DNA from: a virus
DNA: 23,637 bases
IMG/VR virus record: IMGVR_UViG_3300023301_000104
Coordinates: 1 to 23,637 of that record
Strand: one strand, 5' to 3'
Made by a program: the position numbers and the translations under genes. Positions 4,863 to 23,637 of the stretch are shown piece after piece (the stretch's first letter is position 1; the number at the start of each line of letters is the position of its first letter). A model generated the notes under the pieces. It made no database searches. It was not told the origin of the DNA and saw nothing but the letters and a program-made list of their open reading frames with translations.

Positions 4863-6043
4863 TACCCCTCCTCAAACGTGGGTGCGTATTCGTTTTCGTT
4901 GAAGTTTTTCTTCATCTTTAAGGCCTTCATGATTACTAAATCAATCCAACTATTAGACCTCAGTACGTAGTAATAGAGGGATATGAATGGGGTGTTAAGT
5001 CGATCGATTCTACCGTGGGCCTGGTAGAAATTTTTGTAAGAATATGTGAGAGAGTAAAAACACATAGTATCAGTTTCAATGCAGTTCCACCCTTCATTTC
5101 CAGCAAGGTATTGGACGAGGTAGACCCATCGGTCCGTGTCAGGGATGCTTTCATGTTTGTGGCCATTCCATTCCGCTACGTGTAAATCAGGAATATCATT
5201 TAATACACGAAGCTGCTCGAGCTCATAATCGAAATTGTAGAATATGATCAGTTTTGGATGTTTCTTTGTTAGACCAATTACCGCAGAAAGTCGTGAGCCA
5301 TCTGAGTTTGCAACGCGTCTCATTACAGAGTACCACTCCGCTGGATTCTTGATCGGTCGTTCTTCGTGTACGTTCCACCTGTCTTTCACCACACGCTTCA
5401 TTAATGTCTCACTATGGGGTAAAACGATCTCAGTCTTCTTGCGTATAGTGTGCCTAACATAAGGCATCTCAACTAAAATATAGTTTTTTAGTTTTATGAG
5501 TTTACCAACATTAAGATATCTTTCAACTTTAGGAAACTTTGACCAGGTACTATACACAACGTGTTCCCGCTTGAACTCAGTACGGTTTTGATAAAACCCG
5601 TTGGCTAAGAAGACTGGAATATAGTCTAGCCACGTATCCCCTGGTGTTGCTGACAACATGATCCAATGGTTTTTCTTTGCGATTTTAACAAAAGATTTAG
5701 ACCACTTACCCGCTCCAACAGCCCTTTGCTCGTCGAATATGAAAAACGCATTTTCTACGTTAAGGTATCTATCTATGTTGTTCCAGCTATCCACGTGGAG
5801 AACTCCAGCCAGAGTTGCGTCCTTAGCTTTTCCAATCTTGAAGCCCAATGCGTCAGCTTCCCAATCGAGTGAGTCACGCTTCTTAGCAGTTGTGATTATG
5901 TAAATATCCCTTGGGCTTTCGTTCTTCATGTAGTATCCAAAAGCTGTGATAGACTTCCCAGTACCCACATCGCCCCAAAGGATCTTACCGTTTTCTAGTT
6001 TGTTTACTGCATCTATCTGATGTTGCTTGAGTACTATCGCCAT
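4862..6043 (-). CDS. SF2 (SNF2/DEAD-like) helicase
   Basis: 393 residues. The motifs appear in order: Walker A GDVGTGKS (24-31), Walker B-like FDEQ (103-106) in place of [17 protein letters not shown] (130-138, motif III), then a C-terminal lobe ending in QAHGRIDR (341-348, motif VI with the arginine finger). This is an ATP-driven DNA translocase or helicase of superfamily 2, of the compact type found in phage replication clusters. The GGAGG site precedes ATG closely. It is followed by the overlapping small CxxC gene. Likely role: fork or recombination-intermediate remodelling together with the two nucleases downstream. Confidence 0.88.
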
Positions 6044-7895: not shown

Positions 7896-7926
7896 CAAAA
7901 ACTAAAGCCCTTGTTTAGGGCCCTAG
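7896..7926 (-). terminator. Cassette terminator T1
   Basis: On the mRNA CTAGGGCCC pairs with GGGCTTTAG (two G-U pairs) around a 7-base loop, followed by UUUUUG. It lies three bases after the stop of the 78-codon cassette gene. It shares the CTAAA...TTGTT arm and loop with the other five hairpins, while the opposite arm carries matching changes. Confidence 0.8.
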
Positions 7927-7928
7927 CT

Positions 7929-8165
7929 CTATCTGATTGAGATTCTTGTGAATAAGTATTGGTCTTGGTAACCTTCGAATTGGTATTTCTTGTGAAAATT
8001 TCCGTCAGACATCCAGTACCATTGGCCGGGTTTTTGATAATCGGTGATGATGAAGGCGTTTTTAATTTCGTTTTCATCGAGCACAGGCATACCCATACCT
8101 CGGGCAGTGGCTACATAGGTGTGGTAACAGAATTTGCTCTTGATTTGCAATGCGAATAGGGTCAC
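7929..8165 (-). CDS. Cassette gene 1, unknown (78 aa)
   Basis: Starts at GTG (8165) with GAAAGGA 10 bases upstream; no ATG with a ribosome site competes. The protein has an ARGMGMPV-DENEIKNAF segment and a tryptophan/tyrosine-rich end (PGQWYWMSDGNFHKKYQF, then YQDQYLF), suggesting a compact beta-rich fold. No membrane segment or cysteine cluster. Family not recognised. It is enclosed by a promoter element 15-52 bases upstream and a hairpin terminator directly downstream, so it can be made as a single-gene transcript. Confidence 0.72.
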   Translation of the reverse strand: MTLFALQIKSKFCYHTYVATARGMGMPVLDENEIKNAFIITDYQKPGQWYWMSDGNFHKKYQFEGYQDQYLFTRISIR

Positions 8166-8179
8166 GGGAATTGTTCCTT

Positions 8180-8217
8180 TCGTAGGGGTCTCATTATAGT
8201 GATAGTAGATCTTACGA
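8180..8217 (-). promoter_or_regulatory. Cassette promoter P1
   Basis: Minus strand: TCGTA (8217-8213), 14 bases, TATAAT (8198-8193), then GAGACCCCTACGAAAGGA into the ribosome site of the 78-codon gene. TCGTA and TACGA flank the -10 box as inverted half-sites. No TTGACA-like -35 box is present. Confidence 0.75.
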
Positions 8218-8225
8218 TAAGGTAG

Positions 8226-8298
8226 TGCCCGACATGGGACTCGAACCCATACTGGATCGATTTTAAGTCGACTGCCTCTGCCATTGGGCTAGTCGGGC
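8226..8298 (-). tRNA. tRNA with UAA anticodon (reads UUA), class I body
   Basis: 73 bases fold as a cloverleaf: acceptor GCCCGAC/GTCGGGC, D-arm with a three-pair stem, anticodon stem GTCGA/TCGAT with loop CTTAAAA (anticodon UAA), variable loop CCAGT of five bases, T-arm ATGGG-TTCGAGT-CCCAT, discriminator A, no encoded CCA. UAA reads the leucine codon UUA. Bacterial leucine tRNAs normally have a long variable arm; this one does not, so its charging is open. It begins two bases after a hairpin with a U-run and has no promoter of its own visible. Confidence 0.9.
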
Positions 8299-8299
8299 G

Positions 8300-8330
8300 A
8301 AAAACTAAATACCTTGTTTCGGTAAATAGC
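8300..8330 (-). terminator. Cassette terminator T2
   Basis: mRNA arms CTATTTACC and GGTATTTAG with loop GAAACAA and a two-base internal mismatch, followed by UUUUU. It ends two bases before the tRNA and lies 13 bases after the stop of the 65-codon gene. The mismatch makes it the weakest of the set, which may allow read-through into the tRNA. Confidence 0.65.
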
Positions 8331-8342
8331 CTTTTGGTAGAC

Positions 8343-8540
8343 TCAGACAGTTTGGAGATGATCTCGGATGTACTTGTTGATCTCTTCGTTACTCATGAAC
8401 CCAAAGTTACCAGTCAACATGAGAATGTTGTTGTAGGGAATGGCAGCATATAGCTCCGTTCCGCTTGCACTAACATAAACGTGTGTAACTTGATTCTTCA
8501 GGGACTCGAGTACGTCGAGGGACGGCAAGATGCATTGCAT
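8343..8540 (-). CDS. Cassette gene 2, unknown (65 aa)
   Basis: 65 residues from ATG at 8540 with AAAGGA upstream inside the promoter tail. The sequence alternates hydrophobic strands and loops (THVYVSASGTELYAAIPYNNILMLTG) and ends with a helix (NEEINKYIRDHLQ), looking like a small alpha/beta domain. No cysteine pair or membrane segment long enough to span. Not recognised. It has its own promoter element (8552-8588) and terminator (8300-8330). Confidence 0.7.
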   Translation of the reverse strand: MQCILPSLDVLESLKNQVTHVYVSASGTELYAAIPYNNILMLTGNFGFMSNEEINKYIRDHLQTV

Positions 8541-8551
8541 GATGGTTCCTT

Positions 8552-8588
8552 TCGTAGGGGTCTATTATATGCGCTGTAGAACCTGCGA
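8552..8588 (-). promoter_or_regulatory. Cassette promoter P2
   Basis: Minus strand: TCGCA (8588-8584), 14 bases including GGTTCTACAG, TATAAT (8569-8564), then AGACCCCTACGAAAGGA. The half-sites TCGCAGG and CCTACGA flank the -10 box. It directly follows the stop region of the operon gene at 8610-8771. Confidence 0.75.
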
Positions 8589-8609
8589 CAGATGACTCTT
8601 AAATATAGT

Positions 8610-8771
8610 TTAACAACAACCCTTTAAGCATTCCTCGGTATCCAAAGAGAAGACACGAACTGTGTTTTTAGCATAAGATGAATATAGAACCGATGCCACA
8701 GATTCTTGAGACACGCCATAGTGTTTTGCAATTCTTGGTGCAGTCTCTTTTGACAAGTATACAATCTCCAT
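8610..8771 (-). CDS. Small HTH-like protein (53 aa)
   Basis: 53 residues. Residues 6-30 (LSKETAPRIAKHYGVSQESV) have the spacing of a helix-turn-helix: a helix, a turn at YGVS, and a second helix. The C-terminus ends in GCC with a further cysteine four residues before. GGAGGG lies ten bases before ATG. It follows a small CxxC protein and both are in the run that starts at 9211. It is a candidate DNA-binding regulator of this region, but a single short motif is modest evidence. Confidence 0.65.
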   Translation of the reverse strand: MEIVYLSKETAPRIAKHYGVSQESVASVLYSSYAKNTVRVFSLDTEECLKGCC

Positions 8772-8815
8772 TTAAGCGTCACCCTCCACATGTGTCATTA
8801 GTTTTTGTTTCGATC

Positions 8816-8932
8816 TCATGTCCCATTTGAATGCCCTTCAGATTTATAGATCAGTAAACAATTCTGTGAGCAAATATCCTTTTCTGGAGGAGTCATAACT
8901 AAGATCTCGTCTCTACAAATTTTACAAGTCAC
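8816..8932 (-). CDS. 38-residue zinc-ribbon-like protein
   Basis: Starts at GTG (8932) with AGGAG nine bases upstream. It begins MTCKICRDEI and continues PPEKDICSQNCLLIY, giving C-x2-C, 15 residues, C-x3-C, the layout of a minimal treble-clef or zinc ribbon. This four-cysteine arrangement in so short an ORF is unlikely by chance. Function unknown; similar mini zinc proteins in phages often modulate host transcription or nucleases. It lies between the 84-codon gene and the HTH-like gene. Confidence 0.65.
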   Translation of the reverse strand: MTCKICRDEILVMTPPEKDICSQNCLLIYKSEGHSNGT

Positions 8933-8956
8933 GATGGCGCACTCCTATCCTTTCAT

Positions 8957-9211
8957 TCAGAAAAATTCTGAATCATATCTGCTGGGTCTAGAATTTCTCA
9001 GCATTATGAGAGAACTAAGCATTTGACTCTTAGCTAAATATAGATCTGCCATAACGTATCTACCATCTGGGTATCTAAACTCGGCTGGTATAGTTCCTTT
9101 TTCAAATGCATCAGCTTCAATATGAGCAATCTGTTTTGTAATAACATCTAAATGCTGCACTACGTTATCAATCATCTCATCAATCTCAATTGTTAAATCT
9201 TTTTTACCCAT
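8957..9211 (-). CDS. Helical protein, unknown (84 aa)
   Basis: 84 residues, largely helical: LTIEIDEMIDNVVQHLDVITKQIAHIEADAF forms a likely coiled coil, and DLYLAKSQMLSSLIMLRN a second helix, separated by a PAEFRYPDGRYV turn. The ATG is preceded by AAAGGG in a CTACGAAAGG context that matches the tail of the cassette promoters, but the TATAAT box is not conserved here (GATAAG). Possibly oligomeric. Family not recognised. It heads a three-gene run down to 8610. Confidence 0.72.
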   Translation of the reverse strand: MGKKDLTIEIDEMIDNVVQHLDVITKQIAHIEADAFEKGTIPAEFRYPDGRYVMADLYLAKSQMLSSLIMLRNSRPSRYDSEFF

Positions 9212-9280
9212 TTAGGATACCCTTTCGTAGATACCTTATCGCCACATTACGTGCTATTGTTGGCAACTTTTCCACCGAGG

Positions 9281-9315
9281 AAAAACTAAAAGACCGTGTT
9301 TGTGATCTTGTAGTT
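9281..9315 (-). terminator. Cassette terminator T3
   Basis: mRNA arms ACTACAAGATC and GGTCTTTTAGT (one mismatch, one G-U) with an 8-base loop, followed by UUUUU. It lies nine bases after the stop of the 71-codon gene. The arm carries GACC changes matched on the other side, indicating selection for pairing. Confidence 0.75.
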
Positions 9316-9323
9316 TTGAGATG

Positions 9324-9539
9324 TTACTTGCACAGATTGTCCATGATGATGACTTCAAATTCATCTGGGATGATTCCGGTGTCGTTGAGCTTCTTGGCAT
9401 AAATTCCAGTCAACTCGTCAGCGTCTTCGAGGCTTTGTTTGGTGGTCTCGATGACTTTCTGAAGTTTGATGTTGTTTCTAATGTGGTCGGCAACAACGAG
9501 CGTCAGAATCGCGGTGGTGATTTTGTAGTTGATTGTCAT
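9324..9539 (-). CDS. Cassette gene 3, unknown (71 aa)
   Basis: 71 residues. The N-terminal 15 residues (YKITTAILTLVVADHI) are hydrophobic enough for a signal anchor or a membrane-associated helix, followed by a long charged helix (KLQKVIETTKQSLEDADELT) and an acidic end (PDEFEVIIMDN). The end resembles that of the 84-codon protein upstream of the region (FEKGTIPAEFRYP versus NDTGIIPDEFEVI), hinting at a shared short motif. AAGGAG lies eight bases before ATG. It has its own promoter and terminator. Confidence 0.72.
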   Translation of the reverse strand: MTINYKITTAILTLVVADHIRNNIKLQKVIETTKQSLEDADELTGIYAKKLNDTGIIPDEFEVIIMDNLCK

Positions 9540-9555
9540 GGTGATTTCTCCTTAG

Positions 9556-9591
9556 GTAGGGGTCTCATTATAGGACCTGTAAATCCTACGA
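9556..9591 (-). promoter_or_regulatory. Cassette promoter P3
   Basis: Minus strand: TCGTA (9591-9587), 14 bases with GGATTTACAGG, TATAAT (9572-9567), then GAGACCCCTACC and AAGGAG. It begins three bases after terminator T4 of the neighbouring cassette, so two cassettes abut with no spacer. Confidence 0.78.
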
Positions 9592-9593
9592 GG

Positions 9594-9623
9594 AAAAACT
9601 AAATACCTTGTTGGTATCTAGTC
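9594..9623 (-). terminator. Cassette terminator T4
   Basis: Best member of the family: mRNA arms ACTAGATACC and GGTATTTAGT pair over ten positions (one G-U) around loop AACAA, followed by UUUUUCC. It lies 30 bases after the stop of the 55-codon gene and three bases before promoter P3. Confidence 0.88.
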
Positions 9624-9652
9624 TTTTTGATTCTATTGTGGGGCGTTTGAAT

Positions 9653-9820
9653 TCAGCGGCTGAGCTTGTTGTATGCAACACGTCCAACAAAGCCAACGGC
9701 GAATCCTCCAGCAAGCAGGTACGCGTTACGATTGTAACGAGCGACTGCCTTCTTGGATTCTTCGAGGTCGGCCATGATTTTGGCGTTGTGGGCATCAATG
9801 GGGTCAGTGGTGGTATTCAT
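9653..9820 (-). CDS. Cassette gene 4, tail-anchored membrane protein (55 aa)
   Basis: Starts at ATG 9820 with AAAGG seven bases upstream; a longer in-frame start at 9835 lies inside the promoter tail and is rejected. The N-terminal part is charged and helical (DAHNAKIMADLEESKKAVARY), followed by a single hydrophobic glycine-rich segment (AYLLAGGFAVGFVGRVAY) and a basic tail (NKLSR). This is the profile of a small inner-membrane protein with a short C-terminal tail. Function unknown. It has its own promoter and terminator. Confidence 0.72.
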   Translation of the reverse strand: MNTTTDPIDAHNAKIMADLEESKKAVARYNRNAYLLAGGFAVGFVGRVAYNKLSR

Positions 9821-9831
9821 GATGTGGCCTT

Positions 9832-9868
9832 TCATAGGGGTCTATTATACACCATGTTTTTTCTGCGA
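9832..9868 (-). promoter_or_regulatory. Cassette promoter P4
   Basis: Minus strand: TCGCA (9868-9864), 14 bases, TATAAT (9849-9844), then AGACCCCTATGAAAGG. It starts two bases after the stop of the gene at 9870-10121. The spacer is A-rich and lacks the TCTACAGG found in P2 and P5. Confidence 0.7.
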
Positions 9869-9869
9869 G

Positions 9870-10121
9870 CTAAAGAAGATCCATGTCCTCGTTGATTCGA
9901 ACCACTGGGGTCCAACCGGCAGCGCTGGCTCGACCATCAACCCATTTGTAATTCAACTCAAACTCATGTTGATTAATCCACTCCCACGTCTTTGTTACAC
10001 CGTTCTTTAGAATATAGTTGTTGTTGGTTTGAGACCCAGACAAAATCTCCACACCCTCGAGTTCCATGAAGGCAACATACAAGTGGTAGGTCTCTGGTAC
10101 GATTTTTAAACAAGTTAACAT
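9870..10121 (-). CDS. Unknown protein (83 aa)
   Basis: 83 residues with mixed strands: YHLYVAFMELEGVEILSG, KTWEWINQHEFELNYKW and a basic to acidic end (WTPVVRINEDMD). Looks like a small beta-rich domain. AAAGGA is eight bases before ATG. It begins only about 30 bases after terminator T5 and shows no TATAAT box of its own, so its expression needs read-through of T5 or an unrecognised promoter. Family not recognised. Confidence 0.68.
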   Translation of the reverse strand: MLTCLKIVPETYHLYVAFMELEGVEILSGSQTNNNYILKNGVTKTWEWINQHEFELNYKWVDGRASAAGWTPVVRINEDMDLL

Positions 10122-10148
10122 AGGGTATCCTTTTTATTTAAGGTAGGG

Positions 10149-10181
10149 AAAAAACTAAATACCTTGTTGAGGGTATCTAGT
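10149..10181 (-). terminator. Cassette terminator T5
   Basis: mRNA arms ACTAGATACC and GGTATTTAGT pair over ten positions with loop CTCAACAA, followed by UUUUUUCCC. It lies about ten bases after the stop of the 48-codon gene. Confidence 0.87.
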
Positions 10182-10190
10182 TCTTCGATC

Positions 10191-10337
10191 CTAGTGGGTG
10201 GCTTTGTAGCTGTAACCAAAGACAGTTGAACCATCCCAGGAAGAATGCTCAAAGCAATATGGTTCGTCATCAAATGTGACGATCATGTTGCAGTAAAGCA
10301 TCTCACAGGGGTGTGTTTCTGTTTCGATTGTGGTCAT
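10191..10337 (-). CDS. Cassette gene 5, mini zinc-finger-like protein (48 aa)
   Basis: 48 residues from ATG at 10337; it begins MTTIETETHPCEML and has Cys11, Cys16, Cys28 and His31 (CEMLYCN, then YCFEH), a C-x4-C-x11-C-x2-H group able to bind one zinc ion. The end is aromatic and serine/tyrosine rich (WDGSTVFGYSYK). AAAGG lies seven bases upstream. It is flanked by its own promoter P5 and terminator T5, which is the main evidence that this short ORF is real. Family not recognised. Confidence 0.72.
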   Translation of the reverse strand: MTTIETETHPCEMLYCNMIVTFDDEPYCFEHSSWDGSTVFGYSYKATH

Positions 10338-10347
10338 AATAGGCCTT

Positions 10348-10385
10348 TCGTAGGGGTTTCATTATAAGGCCTGTAGAACCTACGA
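10348..10385 (-). promoter_or_regulatory. Cassette promoter P5
   Basis: Minus strand: TCGTA (10385-10381), 14 bases with GGTTCTACAGG, TATAAT (10366-10361), then GAAACCCCTACGAAAGG. Best dyad of the set: TCGTAGG and CCTACGA are a perfect 7-bp inverted repeat whose centres are 31 bases apart, about three helical turns, flanking the -10 box. It begins three bases after the stop of the gene at 10388. Confidence 0.8.
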
Positions 10386-10387
10386 GG

Positions 10388-10606
10388 TTATTTGTGTCTA
10401 CCCGGACCGCGTTTAATGTCTCCATCAAGACCACAATTACAGACGCCATTGCACCAAAAATATTTGTCCTTAGACATCAGGTGCATACTGTGTAGCTGAG
10501 CGCCGCAAGGAGACATACCATCACATTTAGATACTACTTTTAGGATATGTTTATGCCCAGAATGTTCGTCCGGGTTAGCGCAGGAATCGTTAATCATGTC
10601 ACTCAC
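10388..10606 (-). CDS. Cys/His-rich protein, unknown (72 aa)
   Basis: 72 residues with six cysteines and seven histidines in groups: DSCANPDEHSGHKH, VSKCDGMSPCG, HSMHLMS and FWCNGVCNCGL. A CxxxCxC cluster near the end and C-x5-C in the middle suggest one or two metal sites. Start is taken as GTG at 10606, six bases after AGGAG and overlapping the upstream stop by 8 bases; ATG at 10597 is the alternative. It is the last gene of the run from 11987. Family not recognised. Confidence 0.68.
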   Translation of the reverse strand: MSDMINDSCANPDEHSGHKHILKVVSKCDGMSPCGAQLHSMHLMSKDKYFWCNGVCNCGLDGDIKRGPGRHK

Positions 10607-10883
10607 CCTTACTCCTCATGAGCTCGCCAGCAATCTCTAGGCACTTACTGCATGCTGGAAGAGGATCTGGGTCTTTCTTCGGGATAAATACAAGGCCACA
10701 AAGAGCTGTTACTTCAATTTTCTTCTCTCTAGCAATATCAACCAACTCATACATGTCCATGCCTGGAGTCCAAATATGAAGGTTCATTGGTGGGTTAACA
10801 ATGTGCGCCAAGTCCCCGTCTTGATTTTCTTTCTCCGGATCATGCAACATGAAATCTGTCGATGCAGTATCTGTCATAGTCAT
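10599..10883 (-). CDS. DUF3039-like zinc protein (94 aa)
   Basis: Start set at ATG 10883 because it overlaps the preceding stop as ATGA and has AGGTG six bases upstream. The middle and end read EVTALCGLVFIPKKDPDPLPACSKCLEI, matching the DUF3039 pattern ALCGxxWVPxRDPxxxPVCPxCK with Cys-x16-Cys-x2-Cys for metal binding. DUF3039 is known mainly from actinobacteria and their phages, so it is a host hint. The N-terminal part is acidic and Met/Thr rich. Function of the family is not known to me. Followed by the overlapping Cys/His-rich gene. Confidence 0.75.
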   Translation of the reverse strand: MTMTDTASTDFMLHDPEKENQDGDLAHIVNPPMNLHIWTPGMDMYELVDIAREKKIEVTALCGLVFIPKKDPDPLPACSKCLEIAGELMRSKGE

Positions 10884-10990
10884 CTTATACACCTAACGTG
10901 TTCGGTCAAGCAGGATGGTGTTGGGTCCTGCAGGAGGGCGATGGCCACCAAGATGATAATGATGACCATCGCCGCACCTGCTTCTTTCAT
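10880..10990 (-). CDS. 36-residue membrane peptide between hydrolase and DUF3039 gene
   Basis: ATG at 10990 overlaps the stop of the SGNH hydrolase (ATGA) and its own stop overlaps the start of the DUF3039 gene (ATGA). This double coupling is strong evidence for a real gene. The protein has one hydrophobic segment, AGAAMVIIIILVAIALL (about 4-20), followed by a short Pro/Cys-containing tail (QDPTPSC, then HVRC). A single-span membrane peptide; it might hold or modulate the neighbouring secreted hydrolase. No recognised family. Confidence 0.72.
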   Translation of the reverse strand: MKEAGAAMVIIIILVAIALLQDPTPSCLTEHVRCIR

Positions 10991-11673
10991 CGGCACAGAA
11001 GATCTGAGAACTTCAGAACCCGCCGCTTCAATTCAACGTTCCCAGCAAGCGTAGGATGAGTACGATCCACGCTCCACCCGTGTCCATCCTGTAAATATGA
11101 CGTAGGAATCCAAGTGAAGCCAAATCGCTCACCCTCATCCTTAACTACACTACGAATCCACATGTGTGAAGATGCAGCCGCGCCCCAAGGCGACATCATG
11201 TAGACGTCATCTGAGGTGATTCCCATGAGACCGAGCCTTGCGTTCAATGCTCGGAAATATCGGAATGCGTGGTCTCGAACCTTAGCTTCAGACGCATGAG
11301 AAGAGCTAGCGCAATCTCGCCAATCGTTTCGTCCACCTGCAATAATCAGAATATCAGGCTGTTCGGCAATGACCTGCGAGAGCATCCCACCAAAACGAAT
11401 ACCACTACAGTCAGGCTGCTTTCGCATGAATCCGACGCCAGACACTGCGACCTTTACTGGCGTGTATCCCATTTCGTGGCCAACCATACTCCACCAGCCT
11501 TCGTTCGCATCTCCTGAAATATCATTGTATCGCGCCGTGATTGAATCTCCGACAACAACCAACTTCTTTTCTGGCAGATCAGCATTGGCTGAATTGAATG
11601 TCAAAAGCGTTGCTCCGACAGCGATCATAGTTACGAATACAGCGATGAATGTGAAACGGAATCTTTTAAACAT
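10987..11673 (-). CDS. Secreted SGNH/GDSL hydrolase
   Basis: 228 residues. Signal peptide: basic MFKRFRF, hydrophobic core to about residue 26, and ANA|D cleavage near 31. Catalytic blocks of SGNH esterases follow: VVGDSIT (Ser44), GGRND (113-117, oxyanion Asn116), and DRTHP (Asp203, His206). This predicts an exported esterase or lipase-type enzyme acting on cell-envelope or extracellular esters, such as O-acetyl groups on polysaccharide or mycolate-type lipids; the substrate is unknown. AGGAG lies before ATG. It is coupled downstream to a membrane peptide. A secreted enzyme in a phage early region is unusual: it might alter the host surface during infection or lysogeny. Confidence 0.85.
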   Translation of the reverse strand: MFKRFRFTFIAVFVTMIAVGATLLTFNSANADLPEKKLVVVGDSITARYNDISGDANEGWWSMVGHEMGYTPVKVAVSGVGFMRKQPDCSGIRFGGMLSQVIAEQPDILIIAGGRNDWRDCASSSHASEAKVRDHAFRYFRALNARLGLMGITSDDVYMMSPWGAAASSHMWIRSVVKDEGERFGFTWIPTSYLQDGHGWSVDRTHPTLAGNVELKRRVLKFSDLLCR

Positions 11674-11702
11674 TATATCTCCTGTTTTTTGTTATAGATT
11701 AT

Positions 11703-11987
11703 TTAAATCGCTTCAATTTCTGCAAAGCGATCGTTCAAATATAGAACAAGATGTTCGTCTGATAGTCGAAATCGTTTATCGAACTCATACCGAGACATCC
11801 AGCTATTCCCAAGTAAAACTCCTGGACTTCTGTCGTTCGCAACTTGTTCTGCACACATTTTATTAATTATGAGAACACATCCGAGAACTTTATCCATGGG
11901 TATCGTAGAAAACCCACCAGCAAGACATGCAACTGCGATTGGGTATGTGGATTCCGTGATCAAGATTGCCTGTGGTTGTGGGGTCAT
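11703..11987 (-). CDS. Unknown protein (94 aa)
   Basis: 94 residues. The first half is hydrophobic with small residues (AILITESTYPIAVACLAGGF, then VLGCVLIINKMC), the second half is charged (RYEFDKRFRLSDEHLVLYLNDRF). It looks like a small alpha/beta protein, not a clear membrane protein. ATG at 11987 with AAGGA upstream directly follows terminator T6, with CTATATTT between. It heads the run 11987 to 10388. Not recognised. Confidence 0.7.
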   Translation of the reverse strand: MTPQPQAILITESTYPIAVACLAGGFSTIPMDKVLGCVLIINKMCAEQVANDRSPGVLLGNSWMSRYEFDKRFRLSDEHLVLYLNDRFAEIEAI

Positions 11988-12010
11988 TATTGAATTCCTT
12001 AAATATAGTG

Positions 12011-12039
12011 AAAACTAAATACCTTGTTGGCACTTAGTT
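12011..12039 (-). terminator. Cassette terminator T6
   Basis: mRNA arms AACTAAGTGCC and GGTATTTAGTT pair over eleven positions (two G-U) around loop AACAA, followed by a short U-run. It lies 22 bases after the stop of the 53-codon gene. Confidence 0.8.
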
Positions 12040-12061
12040 GTCGAGATGTTTTACTTTTGGG

Positions 12062-12223
12062 TCAGTGACGATTGTGGTAGCGAGGTGTCAGAACAGGCTC
12101 GGTATCTAGCTCTGGGTGACTGTCGTGTTGATGATTAACAATATAGCTAATCATCGCCATGATAGTGACACCGAGTGCAAAATATCCGAACATGATCAAT
12201 ACAGCTTGGGTTGTGTCGTTCAT
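12062..12223 (-). CDS. Cassette gene 6, single-span membrane protein (53 aa)
   Basis: 53 residues from ATG at 12223 with AAGGAG upstream. One hydrophobic segment (AVLIMFGYFALGVTIMAMIS, about 7-26, continuing YIV) is followed by a hydrophilic His-rich tail (NHQHDSH, RYHNRH). Predicted inner-membrane peptide with the tail on the cytoplasmic or outer side. Function unknown. It is enclosed by promoter-like P6 and terminator T6, the same architecture as five other cassettes. Confidence 0.72.
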   Translation of the reverse strand: MNDTTQAVLIMFGYFALGVTIMAMISYIVNHQHDSHPELDTEPVLTPRYHNRH

Positions 12224-12235
12224 AACTTCTCCTTG

Positions 12236-12272
12236 GTTGGGGGTCTCACTACACCACTTGTAAATCGTGCGG
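12236..12272 (-). promoter_or_regulatory. Cassette promoter P6 (degenerate)
   Basis: Aligns base for base with P3: CCGCA (12272-12268), 14 bases with CGATTTACAAG, then TGTAGT (12253-12248) in place of TATAAT, then GAGACCCCC and AAGGAG. The -10 box has two changes, so it should be weaker or need help. It starts five bases after the stop of the 54-codon gene. Confidence 0.55.
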
Positions 12273-15035: not shown

Positions 15036-15146
15036 TTACTGAGTGGTCCTATCGAGTGTTCGGTCTTTTCCTTGACCGCCGACGATGGCACTAGCAGTAG
15101 CTGAATCTACTAGTTTAAGGAACTCAAAGCTTTTTAAAAAAGCCAT
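15036..15146 (-). CDS. Possible 36-residue protein
   Basis: ATG at 15146 opens MAFLKSFEFLKLVDSATASA, followed by IVGGQGKDRTLDRTTQ. The first half is amphipathic, the second hydrophilic. Upstream GGTGGTG is only a partial ribosome site. The codons alternate reasonably but there is no coupling to neighbours. The first codons coincide with a GCTTTTT/AAAAAGC inverted repeat. Low certainty; it may instead be part of the non-coding stretch that surrounds it (15003-15203). Confidence 0.4.
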   Translation of the reverse strand: MAFLKSFEFLKLVDSATASAIVGGQGKDRTLDRTTQ

Positions 15147-15203
15147 TCAGCGTTCACACCACCCGCTATGAGCCTAACCTCTATTTATGCTCGCTCAGAC
15201 GAG

Positions 15204-15548
15204 TTAAATATCAATTCTGACAGAAAGTCGTCTAAACCCATCTCTTAGAGAGTCAACCTTCTCTATGGCGTCTGAAATCCTCTGCTCAAAAATACTAGTC
15301 TGAAAATTTTGAGCATCACAATCATACGGAGTTTCACATGTAGGGACATTCTCGGGGGGTATCAGAATCGGCTCCAGAGATGACTTAAGGTCCTCACAAA
15401 GTTTCTCAAGACCGTCTAGAGAGTCAGAAAGTCGATCAAACTTACTATCGAAAGCGTTATAATCCATTTCTTTCGAATCCATTTTCTCAGAGTAACCTAC
15501 TCTAAGATTTTTAGGTAAATCTCGATACTCATTCTCAGCTCGTGACAT
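15204..15548 (-). CDS. Coiled-coil protein, unknown (114 aa)
   Basis: 114 residues. A long central helix region (FDSKFDRLSDSLDGLEKLCEDLKSSLEPI) with heptad-like leucines suggests a coiled coil, a proline/cysteine-rich linker (PPENVPTCETPYDCDAQ) separates it from a second helical part (ISDAIEKVDSLRDGFRRL). AGGAG lies seven bases before ATG. No catalytic motif. Could be a scaffold or regulatory subunit; family not recognised. Confidence 0.75.
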   Translation of the reverse strand: MSRAENEYRDLPKNLRVGYSEKMDSKEMDYNAFDSKFDRLSDSLDGLEKLCEDLKSSLEPILIPPENVPTCETPYDCDAQNFQTSIFEQRISDAIEKVDSLRDGFRRLSVRIDI

Positions 15549-23204: not shown

Positions 23205-23637
23205 CAACCCTCCTCTCGTTCAATAACATAACTAGCAAGTTGATACCAGAGCTCGACCTTCCTCTGATCTTCGCCAGCATAGTCCAATGGAAACAAACCA
23301 CCAAGTCCATCTTTTTTGTACCTTCTATTCAAAAGACGATCTATTGCTTTGTTAATATAGTCTTGATTGTCGTACTCTTTGTCGTTGTAATGAGTCAGCT
23401 CAAGATTTTCAAGTAAGTGCCAAAACCACCATCGTGTCTCACCCTCAGCTTCGAAAGAGAGACGACGAGATAGAGCAACGAGCATCTCAAGAACAGAGCA
23501 TTCGAGATCTCTCCAATCCGGATCAACTTCAAATATGCTCTCGTCAAGAAAGAATTCCTTCCTTAACTCTTTCCCATCTTCTGCTCGATTGTCGTCGTTC
23601 GGAACAAACCAGACAAACTCTGTTGTATAGAGCTGCC
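23204..23637 (-). CDS. Conserved phage protein, partial (5' end outside window)
   Basis: The frame stays open to the window edge, so the N-terminus is missing; 143 residues are visible. It begins QLYTTEFVWFVPNDDNRAED, continues VDPDWRDLECSVLEMLVALS, RRLSFEAEGETRWWFWHLLE, and ends in GGLFPLDYAGEDQRKVELWY, QLASYVIEREEG. This wording belongs to a conserved but uncharacterised phage family (TEFVWF.PNDDNR; LSRRL.FEA.GE...WFWHLLENL; GGLFPL...DQRKVE.WYQ). Its stop overlaps the start of the large replication gene (TGATG). A replication-region role is inferred from this link only. Confidence 0.85.
   Translation of the reverse strand, partial: QLYTTEFVWFVPNDDNRAEDGKELRKEFFLDESIFEVDPDWRDLECSVLEMLVALSRRLSFEAEGETRWWFWHLLENLELTHYNDKEYDNQDYINKAIDRLLNRRYKKDGLGGLFPLDYAGEDQRKVELWYQLASYVIEREEG

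Follow-up and report, generated by a model that had tools for sequence, protein, structure and literature searches.

The best precedent for the transcription units considered here comes, by analogy, from the Thermus phage P23-45. The two-barrel RNA polymerase (RNAP) of the P23-45 virion was proposed to use strongly conserved, AT-rich promoters together with a conserved 26-nt terminator motif, and this promoter is missing from relatives without the polymerase (PMC10770324). A second single-chain phage enzyme of the two-barrel class, YonO of the SPbeta prophage, transcribes late genes as one operon, and its promoter was left undetermined (PMC5467207). Here we describe a repeated transcription module in a 23,637-nt stretch of viral DNA (the whole of IMG/VR record IMGVR_UViG_3300023301_000104, hereafter the window), in which six short genes each lie between a promoter and a terminator of shared families. 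We consider it probable, at roughly 60%, that these cassettes form a phage-private regulon that would be read by the phage's own two-barrel RNAP.

The repeat has already been noticed in one cluster of phages, in two genome announcements. For the Gordonia cluster DJ phages Vardy and Conley, these report an intergenic TATAAT motif (50 bp or 43 bases, five copies in each phage). It was interpreted as a sigma70 promoter, and terminators and transmembrane genes were noted in its vicinity (PMC9671010, PMC10868162). By description these repeats resemble our module, as both contain TATAAT, are intergenic and precede small genes in the same group of phages; Conley's polymerase was also among the relatives that we found. 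The available parts of the announcements do not describe that each unit has one product, that RNAs are among the cargo, that the hexamer varies by lineage, that there is a link to a polymerase or that the motif extends beyond the cluster. A literature search for the letters of the motif found no paper.

Cluster K mycobacteriophages carry Start-Associated Sequences (SAS) of 13 bp, GGGATAGGAGCCC, for which a role in translation was proposed and about half of which occur with 17-bp inverted repeats (PMC3203893). Like the module, SAS are present in many conserved copies just 5′ of the starts of small, unrelated phage genes, but the module differs in sequence and layout, does not match GGGATAGGAGCCC, and contains a -10-like hexamer that is not in the SAS description. 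The morons of lambdoid phages are single genes with their own promoter and terminator that are exchangeable between phages; their host sigma70 promoters are diverse, and expression typically occurs from the prophage.

Six one-gene cassettes in the window

A sequence-only reading of the window had proposed six cassettes, each with one promoter, one gene and one terminator; its observation was confirmed and its interpretation proved largely right. All six promoters were located on the minus strand at the positions given in Table 1, and each was followed by exactly one open reading frame (ORF; 78, 65, 71, 55, 48 and 53 codons). A weight matrix that was built largely on sites from other phages found exactly six promoters in the window (scores 24.5–51.6), and it found nothing scoring 10 or more in three Markov-randomised copies of the window. 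Each of the six genes was followed by a hairpin with a T-run, ranging from −9.9 to −17.4 kcal/mol. These hairpins belonged to a single family, AACAAGG...TTTAGTTTT in five of the six, with the variant AACACGG...TTTTAGTTTT in cassette 3. None of the 32 non-cassette gene ends checked in the window had a comparably clean hairpin, and the nearest (−9.7 kcal/mol, imperfect) overlaps a ribozyme match described below. Generic scans for sigma70 promoters and terminators missed the module, in that promoter matches were at chance level and the terminators were not picked up.

The cassettes were interleaved with other genes, and a tRNA-Leu gene began right behind the terminator of cassette 2. Because this tRNA gene directly follows a terminator and no module promoter of its own was detectable, it may depend on read-through. 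The proposal that the cassette proteins share no sequence held inside the window, but cassettes 2 and 5, and more weakly cassette 4, have relatives in the module of other phages (Table 1). The six neighbouring non-cassette window proteins that we compared had no relatives in module cassettes of other phages.

Anatomy of the promoter

The module consensus was TCGCR-N6-ACA-N5-TATAAT-GAGACCCC. Within it we distinguished the core promoter, TCGCR-N6-ACA-N5-TATAAT-GA, from the leader GACCCCTAYGAAAGGA, which protein-coding units add ahead of the start codon. The leader lies just 5′ of start codons and contains a Shine-Dalgarno sequence. The tRNA genes of the Rhodococcus phages ReqiPepy6 and ReqiPoco6 (Pepy6 and Poco6) and many non-coding units were preceded by the core without the leader; thus, the promoter does not include the leader. 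The TCGC(A/G) element at −19 and the ACA element at −8 from the hexamer start were present in ~80–100% of 62 non-redundant sites, and both stood outside the query used for the search, TATAATN{0,3}ACCCCTANNNAAGG. No TTGACA-like −35 element was found at 16–18 bp, and nothing was conserved at −23 from the hexamer start. An upstream TTnACA was considered as a −35 box and was dropped, because just 5 bp separate it from the hexamer.

In hexamers of the sigma70 type, A2 and T6 are usually the most conserved positions and T3 the least. At 214 sites where the module hexamer was unconstrained by the search, conservation was T93 A86 T96 A89 A81 T97 (%); that is, the A at position 2 was lost in 14% of sites, and the T at position 3 (96%) was stricter than position 2. 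The form TAnnnT with A2 was present in most actinophage sites. The hexamer was lineage-specific: Lactococcus phages 1706 (TATAGT, 11 sites) and P078 (TATAAT, 9 sites) both infect L. lactis, Faecalibacterium phage FP_oengus had CTTTAT at 11 of 13–14 sites, and Curtobacterium phage Pippin15 had TTTAAT at three sites and TTTAGT at one among ~7. An ACA-like geometry was kept in the variants of all four phages.

Distribution, cargo and terminators across phages

The query pattern was found at no fewer than 203 exact sites in at least 119 IMG/VR stretches, and blastn with the consensus matched 1105 places in at least 198 GenBank phage records (Arthrobacter 64, Gordonia 55, Streptomyces 54, Siphovirus contig89 12, Rhodococcus 4, Microbacterium 4, Curtobacterium 3, Caudovirus 2). 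The stringent exact motif had no match in the genomes of 84,980 bacterial and archaeal species. In every phage genome scanned (18-bit threshold), module sites occurred on the gene strand only, with none on the reverse strands; likewise, the left arms examined (30 kb of Pepy6 and the first 18 kb of the Gordonia phage Tanis) contained no motif match. Because left arms and reverse strands were empty, the motif was not equally common at unrelated positions; equal frequency there is what the sequence-only reading had named as speaking against it, and the scan did not refute it. We concluded that the promoter is an element private to this phage group.

We collected 710 distinct promoter copies over ~335 loci, so other phages do carry the same module around different genes. 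The 584 distinct ORFs behind module promoters had a median length of 76 aa and fell into 194 clusters, 138 of them singletons; a membrane-span-like stretch was present in 348. Overall, the cargo of a unit was a small protein, in most cases a membrane protein with a single span, or else a tRNA or an unclassified structured RNA. A terminator-like hairpin lay no more than 98 nt after 456 of 574 cassette genes, versus 52 of 574 random windows, and its loop was mainly CTAACAC, CACAA, TACAT or CTAACAA. Behind 107 module promoters no ORF followed, and many of these drive short structured RNAs of ~55–150 nt, in which a GAGAGG-type 5′ end pairs with the 3′ end ahead of the T-run. Examples were found at loci L155, L165, L194, L196, L197, L219 and others, and at positions 5531 and 5640 of G001, a longer record of the window's phage (see below). 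Some module-driven RNAs contained a T-arm-like GGTTCGAATCC; at the loci tested, Rfam recognized no family but tRNA among them. Together, the varied protein and RNA cargo and the frequent terminators strongly support a repeated module with a shared, dedicated promoter and terminator. Morons, too, consist of one gene that has a promoter and a factor-independent terminator to itself, and this layout was found in all six window cassettes and at the group frequency just given. Unlike morons, however, all units of the module have one private promoter in common, and its exact motif was absent from the bacterial genomes scanned; the comparison is an analogy only.

A candidate two-barrel RNA polymerase

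The proposed reader of the promoter is the product of the gene at 330–2969. This protein has helix-turn-helix (HTH) matches near its N-terminus and at its C-terminus, as well as a weak match to RNA-dependent RNA polymerases, and the D506, D508, G509 and D510 residues of its DFDGD motif were invariant in 42 homologues. A search of PDB by sequence gave no match, and fold comparison alone gave matches. The best matches of an AlphaFold2 model (predicted local distance difference test 80.6, predicted template modelling score 0.68) were QDE-1, plant RDR2 and the P74-26/P23-45 phage RNAPs (Foldseek 1e-10 to 1e-6; Z 12–16 over ~350–370 residues, within residues ~222–715). The model thus indicates that the product has a two-barrel RNAP fold.

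Judged by sequence and model, the protein resembles the virion and non-virion RNAPs of P23-45 in being a single-chain DFDGD enzyme of the same fold, but unlike them it has HTH regions and is not fused to a tape measure protein. The two systems are also alike, by description of the promoters, in having conserved AT-rich promoters at many short units and a conserved terminator. YonO can be likened by description as a single-chain phage enzyme of the two-barrel class, whereas it serves late genes in one operon and the window system consists of one-product units. In Lactococcus phage 1706 the homologue carries the annotation 'structural protein', which is the sole hint at a location in the virion.

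A homologue of the polymerase was present in 250 of 50,697 phage records, spread over the same genera as the motif. The number of records with the polymerase equalled the number with the motif in six groups (Gordonia 55, Streptomyces 54, Siphovirus contig89 12, Rhodococcus 4, Microbacterium 4, Caudovirus 2), a match of counts rather than of record lists, with 13 phages read individually. Furthermore, 49 of 50 motif-bearing contigs of at least 40 kb encoded the polymerase.

Start of transcription and the reader of the promoter

In 87 module-driven non-coding RNAs, we asked whether the six bases that directly follow the hexamer pair with the RNA's 3′ end, and found that they do. A helix of at least 6 bp from the first base was formed in 30 of the 87, compared with 15.2 when the six bases were swapped between RNAs, and none of 1000 swaps reached 30. 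Because the stem opens at the first base after the hexamer, we place the probable start of transcription there. A sigma70 start would leave those six bases untranscribed, and the pairing therefore argues against such a start. In FP_oengus (locus L225), about half of the 13 transcripts would open with a small hairpin at this same base, for example GGAG-GAGA-CTCC, which is possibly a 5′ stabiliser.

We propose the following mechanism. From TCGCR-N6-ACA-N5-TATAAT, transcription would start at or beside the base right after the hexamer (GAGA...), and an optional mRNA leader, GAGACCCCTAYGAAAGGA, would bring the Shine-Dalgarno sequence; one small gene, tRNA or structured RNA would come next, and then the terminator, with a loop that is often UAACA(A/C). 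The single-chain polymerase, and not the host sigmaA holoenzyme, would read the promoter, and its HTH regions could contact the TCGCR and ACA elements. Each unit would yield a short, independent transcript that either encodes a small accessory protein, in most cases with a single membrane span, or is itself the RNA product, so that phages could gain, lose and exchange units individually. Expression may occur soon after entry, and the cargo may act at the host envelope. We give even odds to the broader proposal that this is a new promoter class: contiguous TCGCR-N6-ACA-N5-hexamer with a start at the very next base, of T7-like geometry, co-diverging with the polymerase in phages that infect Actinomycetota and Bacillota, and controlling dozens of exchangeable one-product units that include undescribed structured small RNAs.

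Several observations weigh against reading by the two-barrel polymerase. The polymerase, the DNA polymerase and the backbone are inherited together, and another phage reader (an activator or sigma-like factor) fits the co-occurrence equally; given this co-inheritance of the whole backbone, the co-occurrence is an association and not proof that the polymerase reads the promoter. In one FP_oengus-type contig (G060, 57 kb), three sites are present but phrog_4291, the family of the polymerase, was not detectable. The polymerase was also found in only 7 of 20 contigs with the FP_oengus-type variant, a figure that is weak either way because this 16-base pattern gives chance matches and several of the contigs are fragments. 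Because there are relatives among the 87 RNAs, the pairing test, with its 30 helices, overstates independence. Finally, host sigmaA could use the hexamer of the actinophages, which is a perfect TATAAT, and both cluster DJ announcements read the motif as a sigma70 promoter (PMC9671010, PMC10868162).

The strongest alternative, which we nevertheless regard as unlikely, is that these are host sigmaA promoters, extended or lacking a −35, which the phages inherited from a common ancestor and which a phage DNA-binding protein possibly gates at TCGCR-N6-ACA, and that the units are moron-like. Consistent with this idea, most actinophages have the perfect hexamer, the TATAAT promoters of the window score as full consensus, and the authors on Vardy and Conley called the motif a sigma70 −10. 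It accounts poorly for CTTTAT in FP_oengus, for TTTAAT in Pippin15 and for TATAGT versus TATAAT in phages of one host species, as well as for the loss of A2 in 14% of the unbiased sites. Likewise, the first six bases pair with RNA 3′ ends and hence must be transcribed. Given the absence of a −35 at the usual spacing, the lineage-specific hexamer and the pairing of these six bases, we infer that TATAAT, although it resembles a sigma70 hexamer, is probably not one.

Somewhat less likely still is that another phage factor, sigma-like or an activator, redirects the host core RNAP, and that the two-barrel enzyme serves late or other genes. YonO, which transcribes late genes in SPbeta, provides a model for this (PMC5467207), and lineage-specific hexamers demand a phage-encoded reader that is not necessarily an RNAP. 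On the other hand, the motif was absent from the structural (left) arms tested, and no sigma homologue was recognized among the window proteins scanned, which covered part of the ORFs. It is very improbable that the block is mainly a translation element comparable to SAS, or an RNA-processing site: the GACCCCTAYGAAAGGA part does sit just before start codons and carries a Shine-Dalgarno sequence, as with SAS, but the upstream part without leader precedes tRNAs and structured RNAs that are not translated, and a terminator closes each unit.

Reading by the phage's own two-barrel polymerase would provide a candidate promoter–polymerase pair for YonO-type enzymes, whose promoter a 2017 study left open (PMC5467207). 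The pair is present in hundreds of culturable phages, with well-studied laboratory hosts among them (Gordonia, Streptomyces, Arthrobacter and Lactococcus), and is therefore directly testable. It would also correct a likely misreading, namely that the TATAAT repeats of these genomes are host sigma70 promoters. If true, the module would amount to a compact orthogonal transcription system. It would also serve as a marker for finding poorly annotated accessory genes and small RNAs by the hundred, and would explain in simple terms how a phage can acquire single-gene units while its neighbouring operons stay undisturbed.

The window and its other features

The window corresponds to the right arm of a siphophage akin to the Rhodococcus phages ReqiPepy6 and ReqiPoco6 and the Gordonia phage Tanis. 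Its DNA primase/polymerase was 64–66% identical to those of this group, and the relatives have a gene order in common with it (DNA polymerase ... helicase, VRR-Nuc, Cas4-like nuclease, RNA polymerase, small last gene). Every recognized gene was on the minus strand. A second IMG/VR record, G001 (34,631 bp), is the same phage: once the window is reverse-complemented, the two agree at 23,628 of 23,636 bases, and G001 extends 10,995 bp further. G001 holds 14 module promoters, and the six in the window are thus not the full set. Coordinates of features are listed in Table 1.

Table 1. Features of the cassette region and of the proposed polymerase gene in the 23,637-nt window.
Feature	Position	Strand	Remarks
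Proposed reader, two-barrel (DFDGD) phage RNAP	330–2969	−	879 aa; phrog_4291
Cassette 1 terminator	7897–7929	−	AACAAGG loop; −17.4 kcal/mol
Cassette 1 gene	7929–8165	−	78 aa; GTG start; no Pfam/PHROG match at 0.1 cut-off
Cassette 1 promoter + leader	8174–8217, hexamer 8198–8193	−	TCGTA..CTA..TATAAT GAGACCCCTACGAAAGGA; score 44.4
tRNA-Leu	8225–8298	−	directly behind cassette 2 terminator
Cassette 2 terminator	8300–8333	−	AACAAGG loop; adjoins tRNA-Leu; −9.9 kcal/mol
Cassette 2 gene	8343–8540	−	65 aa; other phages have relatives in module cassettes (best E 4e-5)
Cassette 2 promoter + leader	8546–8588, hexamer 8569–8564	−	score 50.2
Cassette 3 terminator	9281–9317	−	variant loop AACACGG; −10.2 kcal/mol
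Cassette 3 gene	9324–9539	−	71 aa; hydrophobic N-terminus
Cassette 3 promoter + leader	9549–9591, hexamer 9572–9567	−	score 51.6
Cassette 4 terminator	9593–9626	−	AACAAGG loop; −14.4 kcal/mol
Cassette 4 gene	9653–9820	−	55 aa; predicted single-span membrane protein; weakly similar to Gordonia-phage cassette proteins (E 7e-4)
Cassette 4 promoter + leader	9827–9868, hexamer 9849–9844	−	score 48.9
Cassette 5 terminator	10148–10186	−	AACAAGG loop; −15.4 kcal/mol
Cassette 5 gene	10191–10337	−	48 aa; Cys/His mini-protein; homologue in module cassette of phage locus L109 (53% identity, E 4e-14)
Cassette 5 promoter + leader	10343–10385, hexamer 10366–10361	−	score 50.4
GDSL-type hydrolase	10987–11673	−	likely signal peptide; between cassettes 5 and 6
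Cassette 6 terminator	12011–12039	−	AACAAGG loop; −11.5 kcal/mol
Cassette 6 gene	12062–12223	−	53 aa; predicted single-span membrane protein
Cassette 6 promoter + leader	12229–12272, hexamer 12253–12248	−	degenerate hexamer TGTAGT; score 24.5

Two minor observations concern the gaps between genes. The sequence CTATATTY occurs on the minus strand in gaps before non-cassette genes, and before promoter 2 (7894, 8608, 12008, 12467, 13041 and 14787), with some copies coming right behind a cassette terminator. It was considered as a second promoter class, but the longer record G001 added no copy clearly before a gene. Lastly, a match to the Pistol self-cleaving ribozyme (RF02679) was found at 15139–15204 on the minus strand, just after the gene at 15204–15548, with 35.4 bits against a gathering score of 34.5 (E 1.5e-4 in a local search).

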